From NCBI GenBank assembly GCA_019637295.1, contig JAHBVX010000009.1:1-64000 (forward strand): DNA of 64,000 nt. The letters are read 5' to 3'. The position numbers were made by a program, and so were the translations under genes. Positions 24,733-39,143 of this stretch are shown piece after piece. The DNA is from Polyangiaceae bacterium (GTDB lineage Bacteria > Myxococcota_A > Polyangia > Polyangiales > Polyangiaceae). Each line of letters opens with the position of its first letter. Position 1 is the first letter of the stretch. A model generated the notes under the pieces. The model saw only the letters and a program-made list of their open reading frames with translations. It did not search any database and was not told the DNA's origin.

Positions 24733-26109
24733 TCAGCCCGACTCCACGAGCGCCCACAGGTCCCCGCGTCGCTGGCCGCCAATCATGACCTTGCCGTCGA
24801 ACACGACCAGGGGTGCGGCGCAGTAGGTGTCGTCGAGCGAGAAGGGAGACTTCTGCTCCTCGACGCGCGCGACCACCTGCGCTCCCGCGGCGGACAGCTC
24901 CAGGAGCGCCCGCTCCGCCATCACCAGCAGCCGCTCGCCGACCCGGAGCACGTCGGTCGGGCGCCCGGCGTCTTGGGGCAGCTCGACCCGGGTCCAGGTG
25001 TCGCCATCCTCGGTCACCCGCAGCTCGCCGCCGCCCGCGCCGAGGGTGATCCAGTACAAGCGCCCGCGGTCCGCGTACCAGCGCAGCGTGTGCGCGCCGC
25101 CCGACACGGTCCCTCTCACCGCGCGGGCGTGCTCGAGGGTGAGCGCGGTCTCGTCGCGCGGCGGCGCGAGGACGACGTAGTCGTGACGATCGAGGCCGTA
25201 CAGCGGGCTGATGGCCACGTACAGTCGATCCCGAAAGCGCACCATGTAGCTCAGGCGCGCCGCAGCCTCGCCGGACGCACCCGGGTAGCTGTAGCTGGCG
25301 TCCCAGCGACTCGAGTGTCCCCCCTCTACGAACAGCACGCCGGGCGAGTGCGTCGCGGTCACCTTGGGTGGGACCGCCGCGCCGGAGGAGGCGTAGCGCT
25401 TGCCGCGGAAGCGGATCACGTCGAAGACGTGCAGCGCGCCCGGTAAGACGATGCTGCCCCCGCGGGCTTCGGTGGGCGCTCGGGGCGGTCGATGACCGGG
25501 GCGCGCCACGCGCTCGAAGCGACCCCGCTCGTCGCTCGTGAACACATAACCCTCGACGCCGAACGCCACGCCGAGCCCGAGGTAGGGCGGATCGGCGTCG
25601 GGCACGTGCAGCCGCCCGTCGATGATGCGTAGGCGCAGGAACCCCTGACCACCGGCGCCACCGCGCTCGGGCTCGCCGGGTCGATTCCAGTCGAACGCGA
25701 GCGCGAAGGCTTCCCGCTGCCGCGGATCGTAGCGCGTGACGGTGGCGCCGGTGAACGCCAGGGGTGAGGTGGCGTGCGCCATGAACAACGCGCCGCCGTG
25801 GGCGGCCAGATCGCACACCTTGTGCAGCGCTGCCCAGTGCCGGCCCAGCCGAGCGAAGCGGGGCTTCTCCGGCAACGCGACGGCGGGAGTGGGACGCTCG
25901 TCGTTGCCGTCCGGCTCGAGCTGGCTCGGCGGGAGCTGAGCCGCGATCACCGCCGGAGCCGCAGACACGGCGGCTGGCGCGGCGGCGCTGCCGTGGACCG
26001 TGGGCCGAGGCGACTGCTCGACGGGCGCCGCGGGACTCGCGCTACACGCGGCGGCGGCGAGGACCGGCACTGCCCGCGCGTCGCTCCACCAACACCGCCC
26101 ATGCGCCAT
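24733..26109 (-). CDS. Lipoprotein, possibly beta-propeller, unknown function
   Basis: A 458-residue protein with a lipoprotein signal (L-A-A-A-A-C near residue 22) and a Pro/Ala-rich linker of about 50 residues. The rest contains repeated blocks of about 45-60 residues with Gly-Arg-Leu-[YH]-[VW]-[AI] patterns (G-R-L-H-V, D-R-L-Y-V, G-R-L-Y-W), as in propeller-like repeat proteins. No catalytic motif is seen. It starts six bases after the stop of the upstream metalloprotease gene, with GAGG as ribosome binding site, and is the third gene of that operon. The protein may be an accessory of the two proteases, but that is inference from position only. Confidence 0.6.
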   Translation of the reverse strand: MAHGRCWWSDARAVPVLAAAACSASPAAPVEQSPRPTVHGSAAAPAAVSAAPAVIAAQLPPSQLEPDGNDERPTPAVALPEKPRFARLGRHWAALHKVCDLAAHGGALFMAHATSPLAFTGATVTRYDPRQREAFALAFDWNRPGEPERGGAGGQGFLRLRIIDGRLHVPDADPPYLGLGVAFGVEGYVFTSDERGRFERVARPGHRPPRAPTEARGGSIVLPGALHVFDVIRFRGKRYASSGAAVPPKVTATHSPGVLFVEGGHSSRWDASYSYPGASGEAAARLSYMVRFRDRLYVAISPLYGLDRHDYVVLAPPRDETALTLEHARAVRGTVSGGAHTLRWYADRGRLYWITLGAGGGELRVTEDGDTWTRVELPQDAGRPTDVLRVGERLLVMAERALLELSAAGAQVVARVEEQKSPFSLDDTYCAAPLVVFDGKVMIGGQRRGDLWALVESG

Positions 26110-26115
26110 GGCGCC

Positions 26116-27690
26116 TCAGCGAACGCGGGCCACCCGTAGCCGGGGCACGGCCGCGGCGTCGACGGTCAGCCCGACCGCGCGCGTCGGTGCGCCCGGGACG
26201 GCGTCCAGACTCAGGAACTCGGCGCCGCCGGAGCGTAGCTTGCCGCTCGCGGCGTCGAGGGGCTGCAGCTTCGGTCCCTTCATCTGCTGACCGTGGAAGG
26301 TCGCGAAGGTGCTCGCGCCCCGCTGGCGGCCGGTGACCGGATCGCTCATCGTGGGCAGGAAGGCGAAGCACTTGTTCGTCGGCGCCGCGTCACCGAGCAC
26401 GTCTCGATTGCTGAGCGCCAGGGTCGTCCAAAAGTCCATCGCTAGCTCCGGCGCGCTCTTGCCGGTCGCGCTCGGCAGCGCTCCGGTCAGCGACTCGGGG
26501 GCGTCGAGCAGGGTGCGGAGCAGCGCGGGGCCGCCACGACTCTCGATACCCGCAGAGGTCGCCAGATCCCCGCCGGCTCGATCGTAGAGCCAGCGCACGA
26601 AGAGGTACGATGCGCCGCGCAGCGCGCCGTCCCGCGGGGGATCGTACTTCGTCCCGTCGATGGTGACGTCCGCGAGCGAGAACGAGTCGATGCCGTCGAG
26701 CCCCGCCATGGTCACGTACAGGTTGCCGGATTGGTAGCCGAGCACGTCCTGCGCCAGCGCGCCGACTCCTTCGACGGAGTAGGAACTCTCGTTCCAGCCG
26801 AGCAGGGAGTTCCGCTTCACCTTTCGGTGATAGTGGATCATGTGCGACAGCTCGTGCGCCAGGATCTCCTTGATGGCGTTCGGCGTGTTGTACGGCGGCG
26901 GGATGGCGTTGGGCGGCGTGAGGTACAGGTACTCACCCTGATTGGAGCTCGCGCAGCCGAGGCTCACCCCGAGATCGCAGCTGCTGAAGAAGGCGACCGC
27001 GGTCTGGTGGGTGATGGGCGAGAACACCAGCCCGATGCGCCCATCCCCGTCCTGATCCGACTCGACGCCGAACACGGCTCGGGCCCGCGGCAAGATGATC
27101 TGCTCGAAGTCCGTCAAGAACTCGGTGACTACGGCGGCCTCGATCACGGCGGGCGCGGCGGGGGTCACGTCCCCCCACACGATGGCGTGGCTGCCCACCG
27201 CGAGCGCCTCCACCGTGATGGTCTTCGGCCCAGTCGGCGAGGGCACGGTCACGCTGCGCTGAGCCCCCGGCTGCACCGCGCCGGTGGCGCTCGGCGGGGT
27301 CTCGGAGGAGAGCGGCGCGTCCTTCCACTGCGCGTCATCGAGGGTGCAGCCGGTGACGAGCGCGGCGCTCGCGCTGGCCTCGGCACTCGAGGCGGGCGCG
27401 TAGTCGTAGAACGTCGTCGCGCTGCCGAGGTCGAGGGAGGCGAGCACGAGCACGAATCGCTCCTCGCCGCTCGGCGTGGCCAGCTCGAGGCTCAGCGAGC
27501 CGGAGTCGAGCTGCACCTCGGCGACCTCCCCCGGGGCGAGGGAGAGCGGTCCGGCGCCGGCGCCGGCGCTGCCGGCAGCGCCCGCCGCACCACCCAGGCC
27601 TCCGGACCCAGCGGCGCCGGCGGGGGCGTCGTCGGCGCCGCAGCCGAGCCAGAACACGCACGACAGAGCGAGCAGTGCGAGTGTCTTCAT
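26116..27690 (-). CDS. Lipoprotein zinc metalloprotease, M30/hyicolysin-like (second of pair)
   Basis: A 524-residue protein with a lipoprotein signal ending W-L-G-C at about residue 17 and a Gly/Ala linker. The zinc site is H-E-L-S-H (His279, Glu280, His283), with a further His at 288. D-Q-D-G-D-G-R-I-G upstream looks like a calcium loop. The layout resembles family M30 (hyicolysin) proteases, which cleave extracellular proteins. It overlaps the preceding protease gene by four bases (ATGA), so both are made from one message. The two are distant paralogues: they share the layout and the active-site region but little else. It probably works on the cell surface, perhaps on prey or matrix proteins. 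Confidence 0.75.
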   Translation of the reverse strand: MKTLALLALSCVFWLGCGADDAPAGAAGSGGLGGAAGAAGSAGAGAGPLSLAPGEVAEVQLDSGSLSLELATPSGEERFVLVLASLDLGSATTFYDYAPASSAEASASAALVTGCTLDDAQWKDAPLSSETPPSATGAVQPGAQRSVTVPSPTGPKTITVEALAVGSHAIVWGDVTPAAPAVIEAAVVTEFLTDFEQIILPRARAVFGVESDQDGDGRIGLVFSPITHQTAVAFFSSCDLGVSLGCASSNQGEYLYLTPPNAIPPPYNTPNAIKEILAHELSHMIHYHRKVKRNSLLGWNESSYSVEGVGALAQDVLGYQSGNLYVTMAGLDGIDSFSLADVTIDGTKYDPPRDGALRGASYLFVRWLYDRAGGDLATSAGIESRGGPALLRTLLDAPESLTGALPSATGKSAPELAMDFWTTLALSNRDVLGDAAPTNKCFAFLPTMSDPVTGRQRGASTFATFHGQQMKGPKLQPLDAASGKLRSGGAEFLSLDAVPGAPTRAVGLTVDAAAVPRLRVARVR

Positions 27691-29051
27691 GGCGCGAACG
27701 TGGCGTTGTAGGTGAAGGTGAGCTTGGGCGCGTCCTTACTCGTGGCCAGCGCCGGGCCGACGTCGGCCGCGATGACCAAGACAACGACCTGCCCAGCCGA
27801 CGTTGTCACGGCGATGGTCGCGCTGTTCGTCAGGTCGTGAGCCGTGACCTGGGCCCCGGCAGGGCTCGCGGCGTCGAAGACGACCGAGTGGGCGACGAGC
27901 TTGGCCAGCTCGGGCGACTCGATCAGCACGGACAAGGTGCCGGCCCCGGACGGGCTGAACTTCAGGTTGCGGCTGCCGAAAGCCACCACCTCGGCCCAGT
28001 GGGTGGCTCCGTCGATCAGCCCGGGGGTCTCGAAGCCGAGCCCGCTGAGCTCCACTGAGCTGAAGCCGAAGCGACCGTCGCCGATGCTCGGTTGATCGAG
28101 CGCGCACGCCACCATGAACTCGCCGAACACGCTGTTGAACGTGGAGCCGACCGGCAGATGCGACTCGACCGACGCGCGGCCCTTCTGCGGATCTTGTAGC
28201 ACTTTGGCCAGAAATGGCGGGCCGAAGCGGTCGAGCAGGTAGGTGCCGAAGCTGAACGTCGCGCCGTAGTCCGAGTAGCTCGTCACGCACAAGGGCGTGG
28301 TCGCCGTCGACTTCACGTAGCCCTTCGCTGCGGGCAGATCCGTGAGGTACCCGGCGCGGGTCATGGCCGCCTCCGCCAGGGCCTCGTCGAGCCAACCCTC
28401 TTCGCCGCTGTCATAGCGCGAGCCGATCAGGTGTACGAGCTCGTGCGCGGCGACGCCCAGCATGTAGTCCGAGTCGGGCGCGTTGGGCCCAGTCGCGTTC
28501 AGGTGCAACATCTCCGTCTGGTTCGACATGGCGCCCGGCGTCTGGTCCAGGCTGCGGAAGAAGCCGTCGAAGGTGTAGCCCTGAAAGCCCGCCATGTGCT
28601 GATAGAACAGGACGACGCGACCGTCCTGGTCGATGTCGGGTGGCTCCCCGAAGGTCTCGACGGTCAGCTCGTAGATGCCACGGCTAGGTTCGGCTGGCGT
28701 CGCGTGGGCAAAGGCCTGCACGATCACATCCACTTGGGGCTGCGACAGCGCGGTGTCCCACACGTCGTCCGCGACGTAGACGTAGGCGTGCTCGGTCTGC
28801 GCGCGACACGTGGCCGAGACCTGCACGTCCAGCGGCGGCATCACGCCGAGGTCCCAGGTCCAGAAGGACCGCGGGGGCGCCGTGCACGCCGTGCTCCCGC
28901 CGCCGCCGCCGGCGCCCGACGCTCCGCCGGAGCCAGCCGCCCCGCCGCTCCCCCCGCTCCCTCCGGTCGGCCCTGCGCTCGAGTCGTCGCTCGAGCACCC
29001 CAGGCTCGCGAGCGCGAGCGCGGCGCCCGCCAGCAGCCCAATCTTCTCCAT
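27687..29051 (-). CDS. Lipoprotein zinc metalloprotease, M30/hyicolysin-like (first of pair)
   Basis: The 454-residue protein starts at the ATG at 29051, which gives a textbook lipoprotein signal ending A-S-L-G-C (Cys18). A Gly/Ser linker of about 35 residues follows. The zinc motif is H-E-L-V-H (His203, Glu204, His207), followed by E-E-G-W-L-D-E-A-L-A-E, where the W-x-x-E-x-x-A-E pattern fits the M30-like third ligand. D-I-D-Q-D-G-R-V near residue 150 is a calcium-loop-like element shared with the second protease. TAGGCC lies five bases before the ATG, close to the leaderless pattern. It is the first gene of a three-gene operon. A longer start at 29066 is possible but weakens the signal peptide. 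Confidence 0.75.
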   Translation of the reverse strand: MEKIGLLAGAALALASLGCSSDDSSAGPTGGSGGSGGAAGSGGASGAGGGGGSTACTAPPRSFWTWDLGVMPPLDVQVSATCRAQTEHAYVYVADDVWDTALSQPQVDVIVQAFAHATPAEPSRGIYELTVETFGEPPDIDQDGRVVLFYQHMAGFQGYTFDGFFRSLDQTPGAMSNQTEMLHLNATGPNAPDSDYMLGVAAHELVHLIGSRYDSGEEGWLDEALAEAAMTRAGYLTDLPAAKGYVKSTATTPLCVTSYSDYGATFSFGTYLLDRFGPPFLAKVLQDPQKGRASVESHLPVGSTFNSVFGEFMVACALDQPSIGDGRFGFSSVELSGLGFETPGLIDGATHWAEVVAFGSRNLKFSPSGAGTLSVLIESPELAKLVAHSVVFDAASPAGAQVTAHDLTNSATIAVTTSAGQVVVLVIAADVGPALATSKDAPKLTFTYNATFAP

Positions 29052-29190
29052 GCCGCGGCCTAGCATGGGGTGAACCTCGTCTCCAGCCGGCGCCCGTGAT
29101 CGGCTCGGCCCACCGGACGAGCGGCCGGCAACGCGAGCGACCAGGACTTTCGCTTGTCACCCACTGCCCCGGTGGCATCCTTGCCGGCCC

Positions 29191-31433: not shown

Positions 31434-32531
31434 CTACTGTGTCGGGGGCGCCTGACGCGCACGGCTCACGATGGCGGCCAGCGCGCGGCGCGCCGCATCC
31501 GGCAAGCCCTCGGAGGTGCGCGGGTGGGCCGCTCCGCGGCGGATCAGATCCTCGACCGTATCCCGCAGGGTCTCACCGGGATCCCGGGCCACGAAGCCGA
31601 GCTCGCGCTCGGCCTTCGCGCTGCTCGCGTACCAGTAGTAGCAGCCCATCTCGAAGGTCGTCTCGTCGACCGGAGGCTCGCCGCCGAGTCCGCGAATCGC
31701 GCGCGAGAACAGCGCGTTGGCACCGACCGCCAGCGCGCGGGACGCGGGCAACACCAGGCGCGGCGCGGTCACGCCCGTGAGCCGCTCGAGGCGCTGGAAG
31801 AACGCGACCATCGTCATGTTCTTGCCATTGAGCAGGTAGCGCTCCCGAGCGCGACCGCGCTCGAAGGCAGCGACCATGCCCGTCGCCGCGTCGCGCACGT
31901 CCACGAAGGCGATCCCGCCCTGAGGTATGGCCGGGATCTCGCGCTCCAAGAAGCGGCGCACGTCCTCCGTCGAGCTGTCACGGAAGTCCCCGGGTCCGAG
32001 CAGCAGGGTGGGGTTGACGACGACCACCTCCAGCTCGTCATCGCTCGCGTCCAGGGCCTCGCGCTCGCCGTACAGCTTGCTGCGGTAGTAGGGGAAGCGC
32101 GAGATGAGCTCGACCGGCGCGGGCGAGTCTTCGTCGAAGATCTGGTCGGGCTCCTTGCCAATCGCGATCGTGCCGCTCGTGCTCGCGACGACCACGCGCC
32201 GAACCCCCGCTCGACGTAGTCCGCTGAGCGCCGTGCGGACCGCGGTGACGTTCATGCGATGCAAGAGCTCCGCGTCGTCCGGGTTGCGGGAGACCAGGCC
32301 GGTGCACAAGAACGCGCCGTCCATCCCCCGGGCGCTGTCGCACACGGCCGCCTCGTCCAGCACGTCCACGGCGCGCACCTCCACGCCCTCGAGCTCTCCC
32401 CCCGAGCGGCTGACGCCCACCACCTCGTGACCCGCGTCCCGCAGCGCCGCCGCGAGGTGTGCGCCCAGAAACCCGGTGGCCCCCCCCACCCAGTAGCGCT
32501 TGCTCTGCGACGCGCCGTTGCCCTGGCTCAT
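31434..32531 (-). CDS. NAD-dependent epimerase/dehydratase family protein (extended SDR)
   Basis: A 365-residue extended short-chain dehydrogenase with the Rossmann motif G-G-A-T-G-F-L-G (residues 16-23). The catalytic region holds S-T-S-G-T and Y-Y-R-S-K (Tyr and Lys of Y-x-x-x-K). The L-L-G-P-G-D and Y-L-L-N-G-K-N elements resemble dihydroflavonol reductase and HpnA-like enzymes that act on lipid-linked or sugar substrates. The substrate is not predictable. It is the first gene of an operon with htpX and is divergent from the RMD1-like gene. Confidence 0.85.
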   Translation of the reverse strand: MSQGNGASQSKRYWVGGATGFLGAHLAAALRDAGHEVVGVSRSGGELEGVEVRAVDVLDEAAVCDSARGMDGAFLCTGLVSRNPDDAELLHRMNVTAVRTALSGLRRAGVRRVVVASTSGTIAIGKEPDQIFDEDSPAPVELISRFPYYRSKLYGEREALDASDDELEVVVVNPTLLLGPGDFRDSSTEDVRRFLEREIPAIPQGGIAFVDVRDAATGMVAAFERGRARERYLLNGKNMTMVAFFQRLERLTGVTAPRLVLPASRALAVGANALFSRAIRGLGGEPPVDETTFEMGCYYWYASSAKAERELGFVARDPGETLRDTVEDLIRRGAAHPRTSEGLPDAARRALAAIVSRARQAPPTQ

Positions 32532-32674
32532 GATGGGCGTGTTTGTGTCGGTACCGATGGTGGGTCAAGGGTGCCCGGCCTGCGCTAGGCGTGCGCGGGT
32601 GGGTGCTCGGCCGCGCTCGACGTGCGCGAAACCCAGCCGGCCCAACAGGAACGCTGCAGCTGCACGCCGGGCGC

Positions 32675-32690
32675 GGGACTTGCAAATCCC
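32675..32690. promoter_or_regulatory. 16-bp palindrome before the RMD1-like gene
   Basis: GGGACTTGCAAATCCC is symmetric except for one base pair (GGGA-N-TTGCAA-N-TCCC). It ends 11 bases before the GTG at 32702 and is unusually AT-rich for this region. It may be an operator for the divergent RMD1-like and epimerase genes. Confidence 0.4.
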
Positions 32691-32701
32691 TCGCGGCAGC
32701 C

Positions 32702-33475
32702 GTGACCTCCCGCGATCTACCCGTCCGCGCTCTTCTGGTCGGCTCCCGCCTCGACCTGAGGGCGCTCGACGGTCGCCGACTGTCTCCGCGCGCGGTCGCC
32801 CTCGAGGCCGGCGGCGCCACCGCCATCGGCCTGCGCTTTGGCGCAGTCGTGCTGTTCGGCGTGAGCGACGGCGACGAGCGCGCGCTGCTCGACCGCCTCC
32901 GTCCTCACGTGGGCGATCCCGTCGATGCACCCGAGACCGAGGAGGCCACCTTGCGCGTCGAGCCCGGGTCCGCCTACCGGGTGCACGATGGCGTGCTCGT
33001 GACCCCTGCGGCGGATCTGCAGCACCTGGAGGTGATCGCGGACGCCCTCGCCAAGAGCGTGGCGCTCGCGCAGCACGAGGCCCGCATCGCGGAGGTGTTC
33101 CGTCGCATCGAGCCGCTGGCGCAGGCCCTTCACGCTTCGGGACGCCCGCACCGGCGTAGCCGCGAGCTCATCAGCCAGGTCGGCGCGTCCCTGCTCATGG
33201 AGTACCAGCTCATCGGTCGCATGGAGGTCGAGGACAAACCCGACATTTCGTGGGAGCACGCGGAGCTCGATCGACTGAATGCCATTCTCGTGGAGGAGTA
33301 CGAGCTCAAGGAGCGGCATCGCACCTTCGAGCGCAAGCTGGCGCTGGTGTCACGCACCGTGAACACCTTGCTGGAGTTGCTGCAAAATCGACGCGCGCTG
33401 CGCGTGGAGTGGCTGATCGCGCTCCTGATCGTGATGGAAGGCCTGCTCATGGCCTACGACGTGTTCAAGCCTTGA
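32702..33475 (+). CDS. RMD1/YagE family protein (DUF155)
   Basis: The 257-residue protein has the RMD1/YagE layout. It has an N-terminal alpha/beta part, the helical region L-A-K-S-V-A-L-A-Q-H-E near the middle, a coiled-coil stretch with R-T-F-E-R-K-L-A-L-V-S-R-T-V-N-T-L-L-E-L-L-Q-N-R-R, and a C-terminal membrane helix (about 236-255). In fungi and plants the family includes mitochondrial proteins needed for translation or manganese handling; in bacteria its role is unknown. The GTG at 32702 is chosen because the family N-terminus begins there. It is convergent with the ElbD-like gene, stops five bases apart. Confidence 0.8.
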   Translation: MTSRDLPVRALLVGSRLDLRALDGRRLSPRAVALEAGGATAIGLRFGAVVLFGVSDGDERALLDRLRPHVGDPVDAPETEEATLRVEPGSAYRVHDGVLVTPAADLQHLEVIADALAKSVALAQHEARIAEVFRRIEPLAQALHASGRPHRRSRELISQVGASLLMEYQLIGRMEVEDKPDISWEHAELDRLNAILVEEYELKERHRTFERKLALVSRTVNTLLELLQNRRALRVEWLIALLIVMEGLLMAYDVFKP

Positions 33476-33480
33476 GCAGC

Positions 33481-36400
33481 TCACCCCAGCGCGCTCGGCG
33501 CGTCCGGGGTGCCGCGGTCGGTTGGCTCCCGCGCGAGATCGAACGCCTGCTGGAACAGGAGCAGCTTGGGGATGTCGCTGGTCTTGACCACGCCGGAGAC
33601 GAACTCCGCGGGTGAAGGGGTGTAGCCGTCGCGCACGATGCGGCGAAAGATTTCGGGGCTCGTCTTGAGCACGCAGTCCGCGCGCTCCACCGCCTTGCCC
33701 GGGATGAGCTCGTAGCGCGCCGGCTCCAGCAGCAGGGTGTAGCGATCCCGCTCGCCGAGGGCGAAGTAGAAGCTGACGGGCTCGGTCACCACGCCGGAGA
33801 CGAAGCGCCCGTCGAGCTCAGCCAGGACGGCCTCGATCGAGTCGTCGTCGACCTGCGGGTCGAGCTCGATGGCGTCCAGCCGCGAGATGTCGAGCACCGT
33901 GCCGCGGCGCAACGCCAGGATGGCGCGACGCACCAACTCCGTCACGGCGCGAGACGCTTCCCCGCGCGTCATGTCCGCGGTCAGGCGCTGCAGGTGCGCG
34001 AACTCGAGCGGTGGCCCGATGCGAGCACCGACCTCGCGGGTTCGCAGCACGGTGGAGCCCTTGGGCAGCGCGCGATGGGTTCGATCCAGGTAGACCGGCA
34101 AGATGTCCGAGCGGTGGTGCAGCGCGAGGTAGCCGACGGCGCTCTTGAACTCGGCGATCTCGCCGTCCGAGCTGCGGGTCCCTTCGGGGAAGATGAGCAC
34201 GGTCTTGCCTTCGTCGAGCAGCGAGCCGGCCTTGCGAAGGCTCTGACGCAGGGAGCCCTCGCGACTCATGGCCACCAGGTTGGTCAGGTTGTCGAAGTAG
34301 GCCCGACGCCAGCGGTTGCCCTCGAAGAAGTAGTCCTGCGCCGCGAGTGAGACGATGTCGCGCCCGTAGGAGCCGAGGGCGTACTTCACCAACCCCATGT
34401 CGAGGTGGCTGGCGTGATTGGCGGCCACCAGCGTGTTGCGGTTGTAGGGGATGAAGGCCCGACCCGTGACGCGGGTGCGCAGCACCCGATCGTAAAACCC
34501 CATCTGGGCTCTTCCCATCCAGTGCATCGCCGCGTCGCGGAGCGCCGGCGGGATCTCGAGCGGCTCCTCCGCGGCGCGCTCGATGTGCGCGGTCGGAGAC
34601 GCCGCGCGAGCGCGGGACGCCTCGCGCATCAGCGCCTCGGCGTCGGCGATGGTGTCACACTCACTCAGGCGCTCGGCGTCGAGGGGTTGCCCCACCTGCG
34701 CCTCGAGTGCGACGAGCAACTCGAGCAACATGAGGGAGTCGAACCCGAGATCCCCACGCAACGACAGGCCCGGCTGCAGCTTCTGGGGATCCTTGCGGGT
34801 GATGGCGCCGACCGCTGCGCGGACTCGCTGGGCGGCGGTGTCGAGGTGGTCGGCCGCCTCCATGCGCGGGGGGCGCTCCGAGTAGGGTGCGACCCGCTCG
34901 AGCAGCACCCGCACCTCGTTGCGCCGCACTTTCCGCGTCGCAGTGCGGGGCAGCGGGGCGTCCACTAGCTGAACCACAGCCGGCTTCTGCGCGGCGGGGA
35001 GCTTGGCGATGGCTCGCTCGAGTGACTTCTTCGCGCGCGCGTGGCGCTCGGCGCGGGGGACCACCTCGTCGGACTCGGGCACGGCGACGCACGCGAGCCG
35101 CTCGCCGCCGCGGCCGTCCGCGACCCCCACGAACGCGAGCTCGGTCACATGCTCCACCTGGCCCAGGCGCGCCTCCACGTCGTCCGGGTACACGTTCTCG
35201 CCGCTGGCGGTGACGACGACGTCCTTGGCGCGACCGACGATCACCAGGTTACCGTGGCGGTCGAGCTTGCCCAGGTCGCCGGTGTGCAGCCAGCCGTCCG
35301 CGTCGATGACGTGTCGCGTGGACTCGGCGTCGTCGCTGTAGCCCAGCATGACGTTCGGACCGCGCGCGTGGACCTCACCCACACCCGTGGCGTCGGGGGC
35401 GTGGATTCGGATCTCGACGCCGGGGACGGGCTTGCCGACGTGACCCGAGCGAGCTCGCGGGCTGGCCTCGGCGACCGTGAGGACCGGCGCGGCCTCGGTC
35501 AGGCCGTAGCCCTCCGCCAAGTGCAGCCCGAGCCCGGCGAACAGGTGCTGGGTCTTCTCGGGCAGCGCGGCGCCGCCGCTGACCAGGTAGCGCAGGTGCC
35601 CGCCCAAGCCCGAGTGCACGGGACCGAACAGCACCTTGCCTGCGTCGATGCCCAGCCCCTTGCCCAGCGTGCGCGACAGCTCGACGGCGAAGTCGAACAC
35701 ATGCGAGGCGAGCTTGCCGTGCTCGGCGACGCGCGCCGTGATGCGTCGCTCGAGCATCTCCCACAGCGCGGGCACGCCGATCATGGCGGTGATGCGGCCG
35801 CTCTTCAGGGTCCCCTCCAGGCGCTCCGCGGTCAGCTCGTCGAGGTACACGACCCGCGAGCCTCGCGACAGCGGCAAGAGCAGCCCGCAGGTCAGCTCGA
35901 AGGTGTGATGCAGCGGCAGCACGCTCAGCACCCGGTCCCCTCGCCCCAGGGGGAACAAGGGCGCGAGCGCCGCCACCAGCGCGGCCAGGTTCTCGTGGGT
36001 CAGCATCACGCCCTTGGGCGTGCCCGTCGTGCCGCTGGTGTAGATCAAGACCGCGACGTCCTCGGGGGTCGAGGCCGGCGCGGAATCGAGCTGCGGGCCA
36101 CGCTCCATCAGCGTCCAGAGATCGAGCCAGCTGACGCCGTCGCCCACCTCGGCCGAAACGCGCGCTCGCACCTTGGCGTCCGCGACGAACACCCGGGCCT
36201 TCGACGCGCGAGCCAGGTTCTTGGCGACGAACGGCTCGACCCCGGCGTCGAGCGGCACCGCCGTCGCCCCGAGGTAGAGGATGGCGAACAGGGCGATGGG
36301 CCACGACGGGTGGTTCTGCCCCGCGAGCAGCACTCGGTCCCCGGGCTTCACGCCCGCGGCGACGAGCCGCTGTGCGCAGGCCAGCGTGCGCTCTCGCAGC

Positions 36401-38190
36401 TCGCGGTAGGTGATGCGCGAGAGCCCGTCGACCTCCGTACGCTGCAGAGCCACGGAGAGATCGTGGCGCTCGGCCATCTCGTCGAGCAGTGACGGCAGCG
36501 TCTCGTGGGCTTGCGGCGCGACCCGCGGCCGGCGGATGCGCTCGTCGATCTGGGGGAACACCCACTTCTCGAGCCCCGGCACGTGGACCTCGAGGAACCA
36601 GCTGCGCCACTCGATGGCCTCCGGCTCCCAGCGGATCCTGCGCCGGTCTTCGTCCCCGAGACGGGCGAAGGCCCGGCGCGTGTGATCGCAGCGAAACACG
36701 TAGTCGTACTGCGCCGTGAACGGCACGAACGCCTCGAGCACGTCGGCGATCTTGTGCTGTTGCTGCGAGAACTGGCCGGCGGCCTTGGCAGCCGGCGCCA
36801 TCAGCGCCTTGGCGGGTCCCACCGCGAGCTTGTTCAGCGCTCGGCTCAGCACCGACGTGCCCTTGGCGATGGTTCGCGGCCCGTAGCTCGCGAAGTCGTC
36901 CTTGCCGAGCAGCGCTCCTTCGAAGTGCGCCTGCAGCGCGCTGACCACCGGGCCACCGCGACCGGTGCGTTGGTAGTACTTGCGCTTGTATAGCCCCGAC
37001 AGCTCGAAGAACCGCCGCATGGAGCAGGGGTTGGTGTCGCTCGAGCCGTACTGGTAGACGGCAGGCGCGGTGCCCTCGAGCAGCTCGCACAGGGACAGCA
37101 CCATGGCGCCTGCCACCATGTCGCAGGGGATGAAGTCGAGGGGGTTGTCCCCGCCGGGGATCTGCGTCTGACCCTCACGTAGGGAGTAGATGAGCGGAGC
37201 GCTGGTGTTGATGCCCTCGTTCCAACCCGGGAACGGGTAGTAGGTCGTCGACTCCACGATCGCCGGACGCACGATGGTGAACCGCAAGCCCGAGCTGGCC
37301 ACGATCTGCTCGCCGATGGCCTTGGTGTAGGTATAGGTGTTGGGAAAGCCCCAAAAATGGGCGCGCTCCATGCCCATCTTCGCGAGCTCCGCCTCGACGA
37401 ACTTGCGCTTCACGCGCTCGATCTCGCGTTCGAGGACGGGGCCGCGAGCGGGCTCGTTGCGCTCGAGCAGCCGGCGCCTGGCCTCGTCGAGGAAGTGGCT
37501 CTGACGGAAGGCGTCGTTCATGCGATGCCGCGCTTGCTCCACCACGTCCAGGCACTCGGCGATCTCGCGATCCGGCTGCCAGTGGCTGGGTTCGAGCTCG
37601 CCTGCCCGCGGAAACGGGATCTCGCGGGGGTCTTTCTCCTCGATGAACCCGGTGCGACAGCCCGCGACGTAACAGGTGCTGGTGTGCAGCAGCGCCGCAC
37701 CCCCGAGGTCCCGCGTGAGATCGACCAGGTTCTGCACGCCGAAGGCGTTGACCTGCAGCGCCTCGTCCAGGGGTGGATCGAAGTCGACCACGCCCGAGGC
37801 GTTGATGACGACGTCGACCGCTCCTCGGAGCTCCGCGCGCAGGTCGGGCTCGAGGCCGCAGAAGGCGTGGCTCACGTCGCCCGCGATGGGGGTTACTTTC
37901 TCACGCAGGAAGGCGTCGTACCGAGCCCCGTGCTCGTCGCGCAGTGCCTTCAGGCACTCGCTGGTGGCGATGTCCTTCCAGAACCGCGCGCTGGCGGTCT
38001 GGCCCGGTCGCGGCCGCACCACGAGCCAGATGTGGCCCACGTCCGGATACTTGGACAGCAGGAAGGTCCAGAACACCTTGCCCAGGAAGCCCGTGCCGCC
38101 GATCACGACTAGGCGCTTGCCCCGGAGCAGCCCAGCGGGGTCGAGGGGCCCGGCGGGGGGTTGGTCGGAGACGCGAGGCGGGGAGGTCAT
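33481..38190 (-). CDS. elbD: Five-domain acyl reductase / AMP-ligase / ACP / PlsC acyltransferase / SCP2-like protein (ElbD-like)
   Basis: A 1569-residue cytosolic megaprotein. Domains in order: a fatty acyl-CoA or thioester reductase (G-G-T-G-F-L-G at 31-37, Y-T-Y-T-K active site); an acyl-adenylating ligase (Y-T-S-G-T-T-G-T-P-K-G from 717, E-G-Y-G-L-T-E); an acyl carrier domain with phosphopantetheine Ser1152 in G-F-D-S-L; a PlsC-type acyltransferase (N-H-A-S-H-L-D with His1259 and Asp1264, F-P-E-G-T-R-S); and an SCP2-like lipid-binding tail (about 1430-1569). The order matches ElbD of Myxococcus xanthus, implicated in alkyl ether lipid synthesis. A plausible cycle is to activate a fatty acid, load the carrier, reduce the acyl group to an alcohol, and acylate a glycerol phosphate. 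The symbol rests on recalled architecture, not alignment. Confidence 0.85.
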   Translation of the reverse strand: MTSPPRVSDQPPAGPLDPAGLLRGKRLVVIGGTGFLGKVFWTFLLSKYPDVGHIWLVVRPRPGQTASARFWKDIATSECLKALRDEHGARYDAFLREKVTPIAGDVSHAFCGLEPDLRAELRGAVDVVINASGVVDFDPPLDEALQVNAFGVQNLVDLTRDLGGAALLHTSTCYVAGCRTGFIEEKDPREIPFPRAGELEPSHWQPDREIAECLDVVEQARHRMNDAFRQSHFLDEARRRLLERNEPARGPVLEREIERVKRKFVEAELAKMGMERAHFWGFPNTYTYTKAIGEQIVASSGLRFTIVRPAIVESTTYYPFPGWNEGINTSAPLIYSLREGQTQIPGGDNPLDFIPCDMVAGAMVLSLCELLEGTAPAVYQYGSSDTNPCSMRRFFELSGLYKRKYYQRTGRGGPVVSALQAHFEGALLGKDDFASYGPRTIAKGTSVLSRALNKLAVGPAKALMAPAAKAAGQFSQQQHKIADVLEAFVPFTAQYDYVFRCDHTRRAFARLGDEDRRRIRWEPEAIEWRSWFLEVHVPGLEKWVFPQIDERIRRPRVAPQAHETLPSLLDEMAERHDLSVALQRTEVDGLSRITYRELRERTLACAQRLVAAGVKPGDRVLLAGQNHPSWPIALFAILYLGATAVPLDAGVEPFVAKNLARASKARVFVADAKVRARVSAEVGDGVSWLDLWTLMERGPQLDSAPASTPEDVAVLIYTSGTTGTPKGVMLTHENLAALVAALAPLFPLGRGDRVLSVLPLHHTFELTCGLLLPLSRGSRVVYLDELTAERLEGTLKSGRITAMIGVPALWEMLERRITARVAEHGKLASHVFDFAVELSRTLGKGLGIDAGKVLFGPVHSGLGGHLRYLVSGGAALPEKTQHLFAGLGLHLAEGYGLTEAAPVLTVAEASPRARSGHVGKPVPGVEIRIHAPDATGVGEVHARGPNVMLGYSDDAESTRHVIDADGWLHTGDLGKLDRHGNLVIVGRAKDVVVTASGENVYPDDVEARLGQVEHVTELAFVGVADGRGGERLACVAVPESDEVVPRAERHARAKKSLERAIAKLPAAQKPAVVQLVDAPLPRTATRKVRRNEVRVLLERVAPYSERPPRMEAADHLDTAAQRVRAAVGAITRKDPQKLQPGLSLRGDLGFDSLMLLELLVALEAQVGQPLDAERLSECDTIADAEALMREASRARAASPTAHIERAAEEPLEIPPALRDAAMHWMGRAQMGFYDRVLRTRVTGRAFIPYNRNTLVAANHASHLDMGLVKYALGSYGRDIVSLAAQDYFFEGNRWRRAYFDNLTNLVAMSREGSLRQSLRKAGSLLDEGKTVLIFPEGTRSSDGEIAEFKSAVGYLALHHRSDILPVYLDRTHRALPKGSTVLRTREVGARIGPPLEFAHLQRLTADMTRGEASRAVTELVRRAILALRRGTVLDISRLDAIELDPQVDDDSIEAVLAELDGRFVSGVVTEPVSFYFALGERDRYTLLLEPARYELIPGKAVERADCVLKTSPEIFRRIVRDGYTPSPAEFVSGVVKTSDIPKLLLFQQAFDLAREPTDRGTPDAPSALG

Positions 38191-38279
38191 GGTCGGGGCG
38201 AGGTGGGGATGCTCTCGCTCCCCCATGTGGACGCGGGTGTCAAGGTGGACGGCCCCGGGGCCGGTCAGCTCGGCGTCAG

Positions 38280-39143
38280 CTACTTGCCCGTCCAGGCCTC
38301 GCTCCGGCGCCAGAGCTCCGCGGCGAGGTCGCTGTCTTGGGCCAGGCGACTGGGCCTGCGTGGCTTGCACTTGTCGTAGTAGAGCCCCGTCTCCGACGCG
38401 AGCTCTGGGCTCGTCGCGCAGTGCAGCGTGGTCCGCGCGCCCTGCTCATTGCTGAGCATGAACAACTTCATCACGGCGCGCACGGGCAGGGGGACCTCGC
38501 GCCACACGTCCGTCGCGACCATCCCCGGGTTGAGCGAGTAGGTGGTCACCCCCGACGGGAGGCGGCGTGCGTGCTCCGCAGCGAACAGCACGTTGGCGAG
38601 CTTGCTGACCGCGTACTCCGGCAGCCCCGTGAGCGAGGCGGTGGGCTGCTGCAGTTTCTCCCAGTCGATGCTGCCCTTGGTCTGGTAGTGGGAGCCGCTC
38701 GACACGTTGACGATGCGCGACGGCGCCGACTCGCGCAGACGCTGCTCGAGCAGACGCGTGAACGCGAAGTGACCGAGGTGATTGACGCCGAACGCGATCT
38801 CGAAGCCGTCATCGCTGACGCCACGGGGCCCAGCCAGGCCGGCGTTGTTCACGAGCACGTGCAAGGGCAGGTCGCGCGCGAGGAACGTGCGCGCCGCGTC
38901 GCGCACCGAGCGGAGCGACGCGAGGTCGAGCTTCAGCAGCTCGACCTGCTCGTTCTTCGTCTCTCGGGTGATGCGCTCGAGCACCGGAACCGCGCGCTCC
39001 TTCGAGCGACACGCCAAGAACACATGTGCCCCGGCGCGGGCCAGCTCGCGGGCGGTGATCTCACCGATGCCGGTGTTGGCGCCGGTGACGATGCAGACGC
39101 GTCCGCTCATGTCTCGCGTCACTTCCTGGGCTGGATTCGCCAT
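38280..39143 (-). CDS. Short-chain dehydrogenase, retinol dehydrogenase-like
   Basis: A 287-residue classical SDR with T-G-A-N-T-G-I-G (cofactor), N-N-A-G, a Ser in V-N-V-S-S-G, and the catalytic Y-A-V-S-K. The sequence C-R-S after the second strand suggests NADP preference, and the L-N-P-G-M-V-A-T tail is typical of RDH/WWOX-like SDRs. It lies 89 bases upstream of the megaprotein gene in the same direction. It may therefore handle an alcohol, aldehyde or keto-lipid intermediate of the same lipid pathway, which is inference from position. TATGGC sits five bases before the ATG at 39143. Confidence 0.85.
   Translation of the reverse strand: MANPAQEVTRDMSGRVCIVTGANTGIGEITARELARAGAHVFLACRSKERAVPVLERITRETKNEQVELLKLDLASLRSVRDAARTFLARDLPLHVLVNNAGLAGPRGVSDDGFEIAFGVNHLGHFAFTRLLEQRLRESAPSRIVNVSSGSHYQTKGSIDWEKLQQPTASLTGLPEYAVSKLANVLFAAEHARRLPSGVTTYSLNPGMVATDVWREVPLPVRAVMKLFMLSNEQGARTTLHCATSPELASETGLYYDKCKPRRPSRLAQDSDLAAELWRRSEAWTGK

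Follow-up and report, generated by a model that had tools for sequence, protein, structure and literature searches.

A probable ether-lipid enzyme of the ElbD type with a C-terminal SCP2-fold tail in a Polyangiaceae bacterium

The protein encoded at positions 33481-38190 on the minus strand of the window (the whole stretch of DNA analysed, 64,000 nucleotides from the start of contig JAHBVX010000009.1 of a Polyangiaceae bacterium) is probably an ether-lipid enzyme of the ElbD type, extended at its C-terminus by an SCP2 domain. Judged from its sequence, the body of the protein is a homologue of ElbD, the protein of Myxococcus xanthus reportedly described by Lorenzen et al. in 2014, and the C-terminal ~100 residues have the SCP2 fold according to the sequences of homologues and a predicted structure. 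This tail is absent from the Myxococcus-type ElbDs examined. Because ElbDs that carry a lipid-carrier fold form a large natural group, they provide a direct handle on how ElbD leads to the ether bond.

The elbD homologue has 1569 residues, counting from the ATG at 38190, and is read in a single minus-strand frame. The frame itself opens further out, with a GTG at 38370, and runs to 33481; another in-frame ATG is located at 38226. The use of the GTG as the start would result in an overlap with the gene of a short-chain dehydrogenase/reductase (SDR), located 89 bases upstream of elbD (38280..39143, minus strand; Pfam adh_short, 1.6e-27). The range 33481-39143 given in the original prediction contains two genes, elbD and the SDR gene; the single-frame multidomain protein itself was confirmed.

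Four body domains were found by Pfam, all on the minus strand and above the cut-off: a fatty acyl-CoA reductase domain (NAD_binding_4; residues 31-363, 37102..38100, 3.8e-45), an AMP-binding ligase (residues 573-951, 35338..36474, 8.3e-81) with its AMP-binding_C part (residues 1005-1087 including K1087, 34930..35178, 7.8e-6), an acyl carrier domain (PP-binding; residues 1121-1185 with Ser1152, 34636..34830, 6.2e-10), and a PlsC acyltransferase domain (Acyltransferase; residues 1239-1368, 34087..34476, 2.2e-18). A Sterile (FAR C-terminal) domain between reductase and ligase (residues 474-545, 36556..36771, minus strand) was weak, with 4.7e-4 and 20.7 bits against a cut-off of 35.4, and it was also below the Pfam cut-off in the ElbDs of Citreicoccus and Sorangium. 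In an alignment of 20 homologous rows, the invariant positions were, for the reductase, G31-F35, G37, K38 and the pair Y286xxxK290; for the ligase, TSGTTGxPKG, EGYGLTE, TGD and K1087; for the carrier, D1151-S1152-L1153; and for the acyltransferase, H1259, D1264 and FPEGTR (1334-1339). We take these residues of all four domains to be the catalytic ones. The proposed layout of five domains in one 1569-residue frame was thus upheld, with the four body domains identified by Pfam and the tail through its homologues and fold.

A search of 59 genomes, including that of the window, yielded matches at 1e-60 in 45 of them, and the weaker matches were only ligases or reductases. At 24 loci (L009-L032), the alignment was in one piece, starting within the first 17 residues and reaching at least residue 1430. 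The ElbD of Citreicoccus showed the same domain order (reductase, ligase, carrier and PlsC), and the ElbDs of Corallococcus, with 41-42% in the best segment, were matched from query residue 8 or 11 to residue 1440. A body profile built from the tailed rows matched the ElbDs of Myxococcaceae and Archangiaceae end to end with ~1570-1590 bits. The kinship to ElbD put forward in the original prediction is therefore well founded, both in the domain order and in the end-to-end match of the body to Myxococcaceae ElbD. In the Sorangium homologue, no Pfam match of PP-binding was obtained at E 0.1.

The tail comprises residues 1452-1552 (33535..33837, minus strand). In the window protein itself, no Pfam SCP2 match was obtained for the tail even at E 1, and a PF02036 search of its genome matched two other proteins but not the elbD tail. 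With E values of 1 or lower, the same Pfam family (SCP2, PF02036) matched 34 of 36 homologous tails; the best value was 1.5e-5, and the tail of the window was one of the two misses; the Sorangium ElbD tail scored 19.8 bits, below the cut-off of 21.3. A profile of the 36 tails matched the SCP2 domain of human MFE-2 (1ikt) in the PDB at 8.5e-5. Ranks 1-5 of this search were the MFE-2 SCP2 domain and its variants, and rank 6 was a colicin at 0.13. The HMM domain search therefore detected the reductase and the other body domains, whereas SCP2 was missed in this protein alone and found by way of its homologues. An origin of the tail by chance or as a translation artefact was also considered and ruled out by 36 rows with 13 invariant columns.

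The AlphaFold (AF2) model of the tail, with the window sequence and nine named homologues as the alignment input, showed a pLDDT of 82.9 and a pTM of 0.70. In a Foldseek search with this model, alkylsulfatases and SCP2 proteins were at the top, and UbiJ, MycE methyltransferases and Eis acetyltransferases were lower. VIA-align ranked the alkylsulfatase 2yhe_A first, with Z 13.4 but at 6.5 A; the values were Z 12.0 at 2.7 A over 104 residues for 2cfz, and Z 10.9 at 2.7 A over 101 aligned residues for 1ikt. Eis, with Z 9.1 at 4.8 A, was below 1ikt. Together with the 34 of 36 homologous tails and the profile match, the model bears out the SCP2-like nature claimed for the tail. The SCP2-like domain of human MFE-2 is fused to a beta-oxidation enzyme, and it shares with the tail both the fold and the place in a multifunctional lipid enzyme; unlike the tail, it is not attached to a ligase, carrier and acyltransferase, and its identity to the tail is 23%. 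The C-terminal SCP2-like domain of the alkylsulfatase SdsA1 (2cfz) is similar in fold, but its host enzyme is a hydrolase whose catalytic part is unrelated, and it is 15% identical to the tail. According to its entry title, SdsA1 was crystallised with 1-dodecanol, which may or may not touch the SCP2-like domain.

From its sequence, the window protein would function in ether-lipid formation. The ligase would form an acyl-adenylate and transfer its acyl group to the phosphopantetheine carried by Ser1152. Reduction of the resulting thioester to an aldehyde or alcohol would fall to the reductase domain, while an acceptor of the glycerol-phosphate type would be acylated by the PlsC domain. The SCP2 domain, connected to the acyltransferase by a short linker, would most likely hold the hydrophobic chain or the lipid product and deliver it to a following enzyme or the membrane. 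We infer the reduction and the acyl transfer, the order of these steps, the channelling and any role of the tail. Lipid holding and hand-over would be the most likely role, because the host enzyme acts on long chains and the close structural relatives of the tail include SCP2 proteins with ligand (1ikt, named "liganded" in its PDB title, and 1pz4, whose title names a C16 fatty acid). The fold itself says little about the cargo, because SCP2 folds are also found in very different proteins (UbiJ, Eis and MycE).

The main rival to lipid holding is a docking or membrane-anchoring module, in which the tail would contact a partner protein or the bilayer with no lipid cargo. In the model of the acyltransferase with the tail (pTM 0.65), both domains are predicted with confidence and the linker between them (residues 1444-1448) with low confidence, as would be expected for a tether; it fits a tethered domain, the orientation of which is not fixed by the model. 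The conserved ADCVLKT and K1536 could be surface contacts, and SCP2-like folds also occur in Eis and MycE, for which we know of no role as lipid carriers. We nevertheless regard docking as rather unlikely, given the ligand-named SCP2 entries (1ikt, 1pz4) among the close structural matches and the lack of a known partner.

In M. xanthus, ElbD has been described with FAR, ACS, ACP and AGPAT-like domains, with ligase and carrier activity in vitro, and elbD is needed for ether lipid formation (PMC9131029). Neither acyltransferase activity nor fatty alcohol was detected in M. xanthus, and the same article gives the function of elbC as unknown, likewise how the ether bond is reached (PMC9131029). 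The presence of an ElbD homologue does not guarantee ether lipids, as noted in a report on Pontiella, which also names ABF88003.1 as the M. xanthus ElbD record (PMC11868695). Our literature search, outside of which Lorenzen et al. 2014 lay, found no paper on ElbD with sterol carrier and none in which SCP2 is combined with the other domains.

The genes around elbD were compared with the flanks of 58 other loci by tblastn at E 1e-15. An elbE homologue of the NAD-dependent epimerase/dehydratase family (31434..32531, minus strand; 365 aa; Pfam Epimerase, 1.6e-26) was found near elbD in 44 of these 58 loci, of which one (L037) is not an ElbD and the flanks are often no more than 1.5 kb. It is a conserved partner that the original prediction did not include, and the ElbE of the window is 45.5% identical to a stretch beside the elbD of Citreicoccus. 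Between elbD and elbE lies a DUF155 gene on the plus strand (32543..33475; Pfam 6.8e-28), of the RMND1/Sif2-Sif3/Mrx10 kind, for which none of the 58 loci gave a hit at 1e-15. Elsewhere in the window, at positions 24733-29066, three open frames of 458-524 aa follow one another on the minus strand; their G+C content across codon positions is biased as in coding DNA, and Pfam matched none of them at 0.001.

The original prediction had also suggested that the SDR could act on an intermediate, so that elbD and the SDR gene would form a functional two-gene unit. The two genes are on the same strand with 89 bases between them, as such a unit would have; against this, none of the flanks of the 58 other loci contained an SDR homologue at 1e-15, including those of the closest relative, whose ElbD is 77% identical. 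A weaker SDR relative (blastp, 1e-8) was located ~3 kb from an Archangiaceae elbD on the opposite strand. The upstream SDR is thus probably not part of the system, and a joint function of the two genes appears very unlikely.

Homologues of elbB and elbC, also missing from the original prediction, were found side by side on contig 20 (~191799-194109). The system of the window resembles that of M. xanthus in the order of reductase, ligase, carrier and acyltransferase, in the nearby elbE, and in a body collinear with the ElbDs of Myxococcaceae relatives, with Corallococcus and Citreicoccus standing in for the M. xanthus sequence. It differs in the SCP2 tail of ~100 residues, in the DUF155 gene between elbD and elbE, and in the location of elbB-elbC on another contig. 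A homologue of the alkyl-DHAP synthase AGPS was found on contig 24 (~191576-193177; L215:658-2259) and matched PDB 2uuu at 4.8e-75. CarF was not found in the genome of the window, with Citreicoccus as the positive control. Given the AGPS homologue, the elb genes and the absence of CarF, this gene content would make alkyl ether lipids possible by two routes, and plasmalogens via the CarF step would not be expected.

The enzyme might instead make another acyl product, such as a wax ester, a fatty alcohol or an acylated glycolipid, for which a reductase, a ligase and an acyltransferase would also be suited. The separation of elbB and elbC from elbD and the lack of CarF, which converts alkyl ether lipids to plasmalogens, would agree with such a product. 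However, the elbE homologue nearby, the elbB-elbC pair and the AGPS homologue in the genome, and the collinearity of the body with Myxococcaceae ElbD all favor ether lipids, and CarF is described as a requirement for plasmalogens, not for alkyl ethers (PMC9131029). Another product is accordingly considered improbable.

ElbC belongs to the LarA superfamily, with Pfam Lar_N in the copy of the window's genome (contig 20, ~192526-194109, L149:8527-10110) and in two others (L049:6328-7938 and L051:6356-7933). The own copy matched NCBIfam NF052592 (NPN-dependent hydroxyacid isomerase LarAH14/15/16) with 794.8 bits against a cut-off of 740. The HR, GG(H/Y)KS and HH positions were conserved in 7 rows, and a LarC-type nickel insertion gene was present in all three genomes queried. 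In papers on the LarA superfamily, D-mannonate is a substrate of LarAH15, whereas LarAH14 was inactive; the word "lipid" does not occur in their main texts. We also considered the SCP2 tail as a shuttle of the elb route, which would take the ElbD-bound aldehyde, alcohol or early ether product to partners including the nickel-pincer LarA-type ElbC, so that the ether bond would arise without AGPS by a hydride-transfer chemistry not yet described for lipids. This idea is a long shot, and we rate it as very unlikely.

The distribution of the tail was determined in two sets of genomes. The named set, a sample consisting of the best 80 of 586 candidates from two peptide patterns, contained 29 loci (L038-L066) that are ElbDs or fragments: 9 tailed, 18 tailless and 2 that end early (L058, from a Myxococcaceae bin, and L063). 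The tailed ones include those of Labilithrix, Sorangium cellulosum So ce26, Enhygromyxa salina and a Bradymonadaceae bin, and the tailless ones those of Corallococcus, Citreicoccus, an Archangiaceae bin and four Acidobacteriota bins. No tail was present in 5 Myxococcaceae, 1 Archangiaceae and 4 Acidobacteriota ElbDs, each read to its end, and those of Corallococcus, Citreicoccus and Archangiaceae stop 10-19 residues past the body profile match. The original prediction had left it to an alignment with ElbD whether the tail is shared; judged by these ElbDs as stand-ins for that of M. xanthus, it is not. Since these ElbDs of Myxococcaceae, Archangiaceae and Acidobacteriota are tailless, the tail is a lineage variant.

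In a draw of 112 genomes of the phylum, 38 had a reductase-domain match at 1e-80. Among these, 33 had an ElbD-tail match, 3 had a complete tailless ElbD, and 2 had no ElbD; in these two, the open frame with the reductase was shorter, and the only tail relative was small and separate. The tailed share was therefore 33 of the 36 genomes counted as ElbD-bearing, a count restricted to ElbDs that reach the 1e-80 reductase threshold; 24 of the 33 were read as sequence and 9 were not, including the fragments G110 and G115. One genome (G127), with the tail in a 1298-residue frame and no reductase match, was left out of the count. Tailed ElbDs are common in Myxococcota. The three tailless ElbDs of the draw belong by tool label to the window's own class, so the tail does not simply follow class. 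The elbD gene has already been reported from all three myxobacterial suborders (PMC9131029). According to an antiSMASH-based survey, conservation of the VEPE/AEPE cluster does not extend to Polyangium, Sorangium and Nannocystis (PMC12224551); in contrast, S. cellulosum So ce26 has elbD with an elbE homologue.

The history of the tail was examined using trees of the body and of the tail. The body tree, a quick tree with SH-aLRT only and with the long-branch row L064 in play, comprised 67 rows (66 different) in which the body match starts before profile position 60 and ends past 1380, and 49 of these rows have the tail. The tail label required two changes on this tree compared with 16.1 in shuffles, and the starred branches were compatible with a single origin; a one-clade constraint on all tailed bodies was borderline (p 0.056). 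In the tail tree, built from 110 columns with a bootstrap that had not settled, the 51 ElbD tails formed one group against 13 other tail relatives, with support of 100/100. Perhaps a small SCP2 protein became fused to an ElbD once, and the tail may since have been lost or transferred in places.

A separate tail relative beside the elbD of tailless Myxococcaceae was sought with the tail profile over all open frames of 117 loci, which returned only the 36 tailed ElbD frames. ElbC was rejected as a candidate for such a relative, being a LarA-family protein. The 13 tail relatives outside ElbD are encoded in open frames of 105-219 residues in 11 cases and in longer frames in 2, and the stretches read around them contained no ElbD, ElbB, ElbC or ElbE match; three (L152, L154 and L156) have a distant ligase-like or PlsC-like neighbour. 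Small SCP2 proteins of ~105 residues related to the tail were observed in other Myxococcota (L151-L162, e.g. L151:8085-8411), and several of their loci adjoin a common set of genes (families 1-6).
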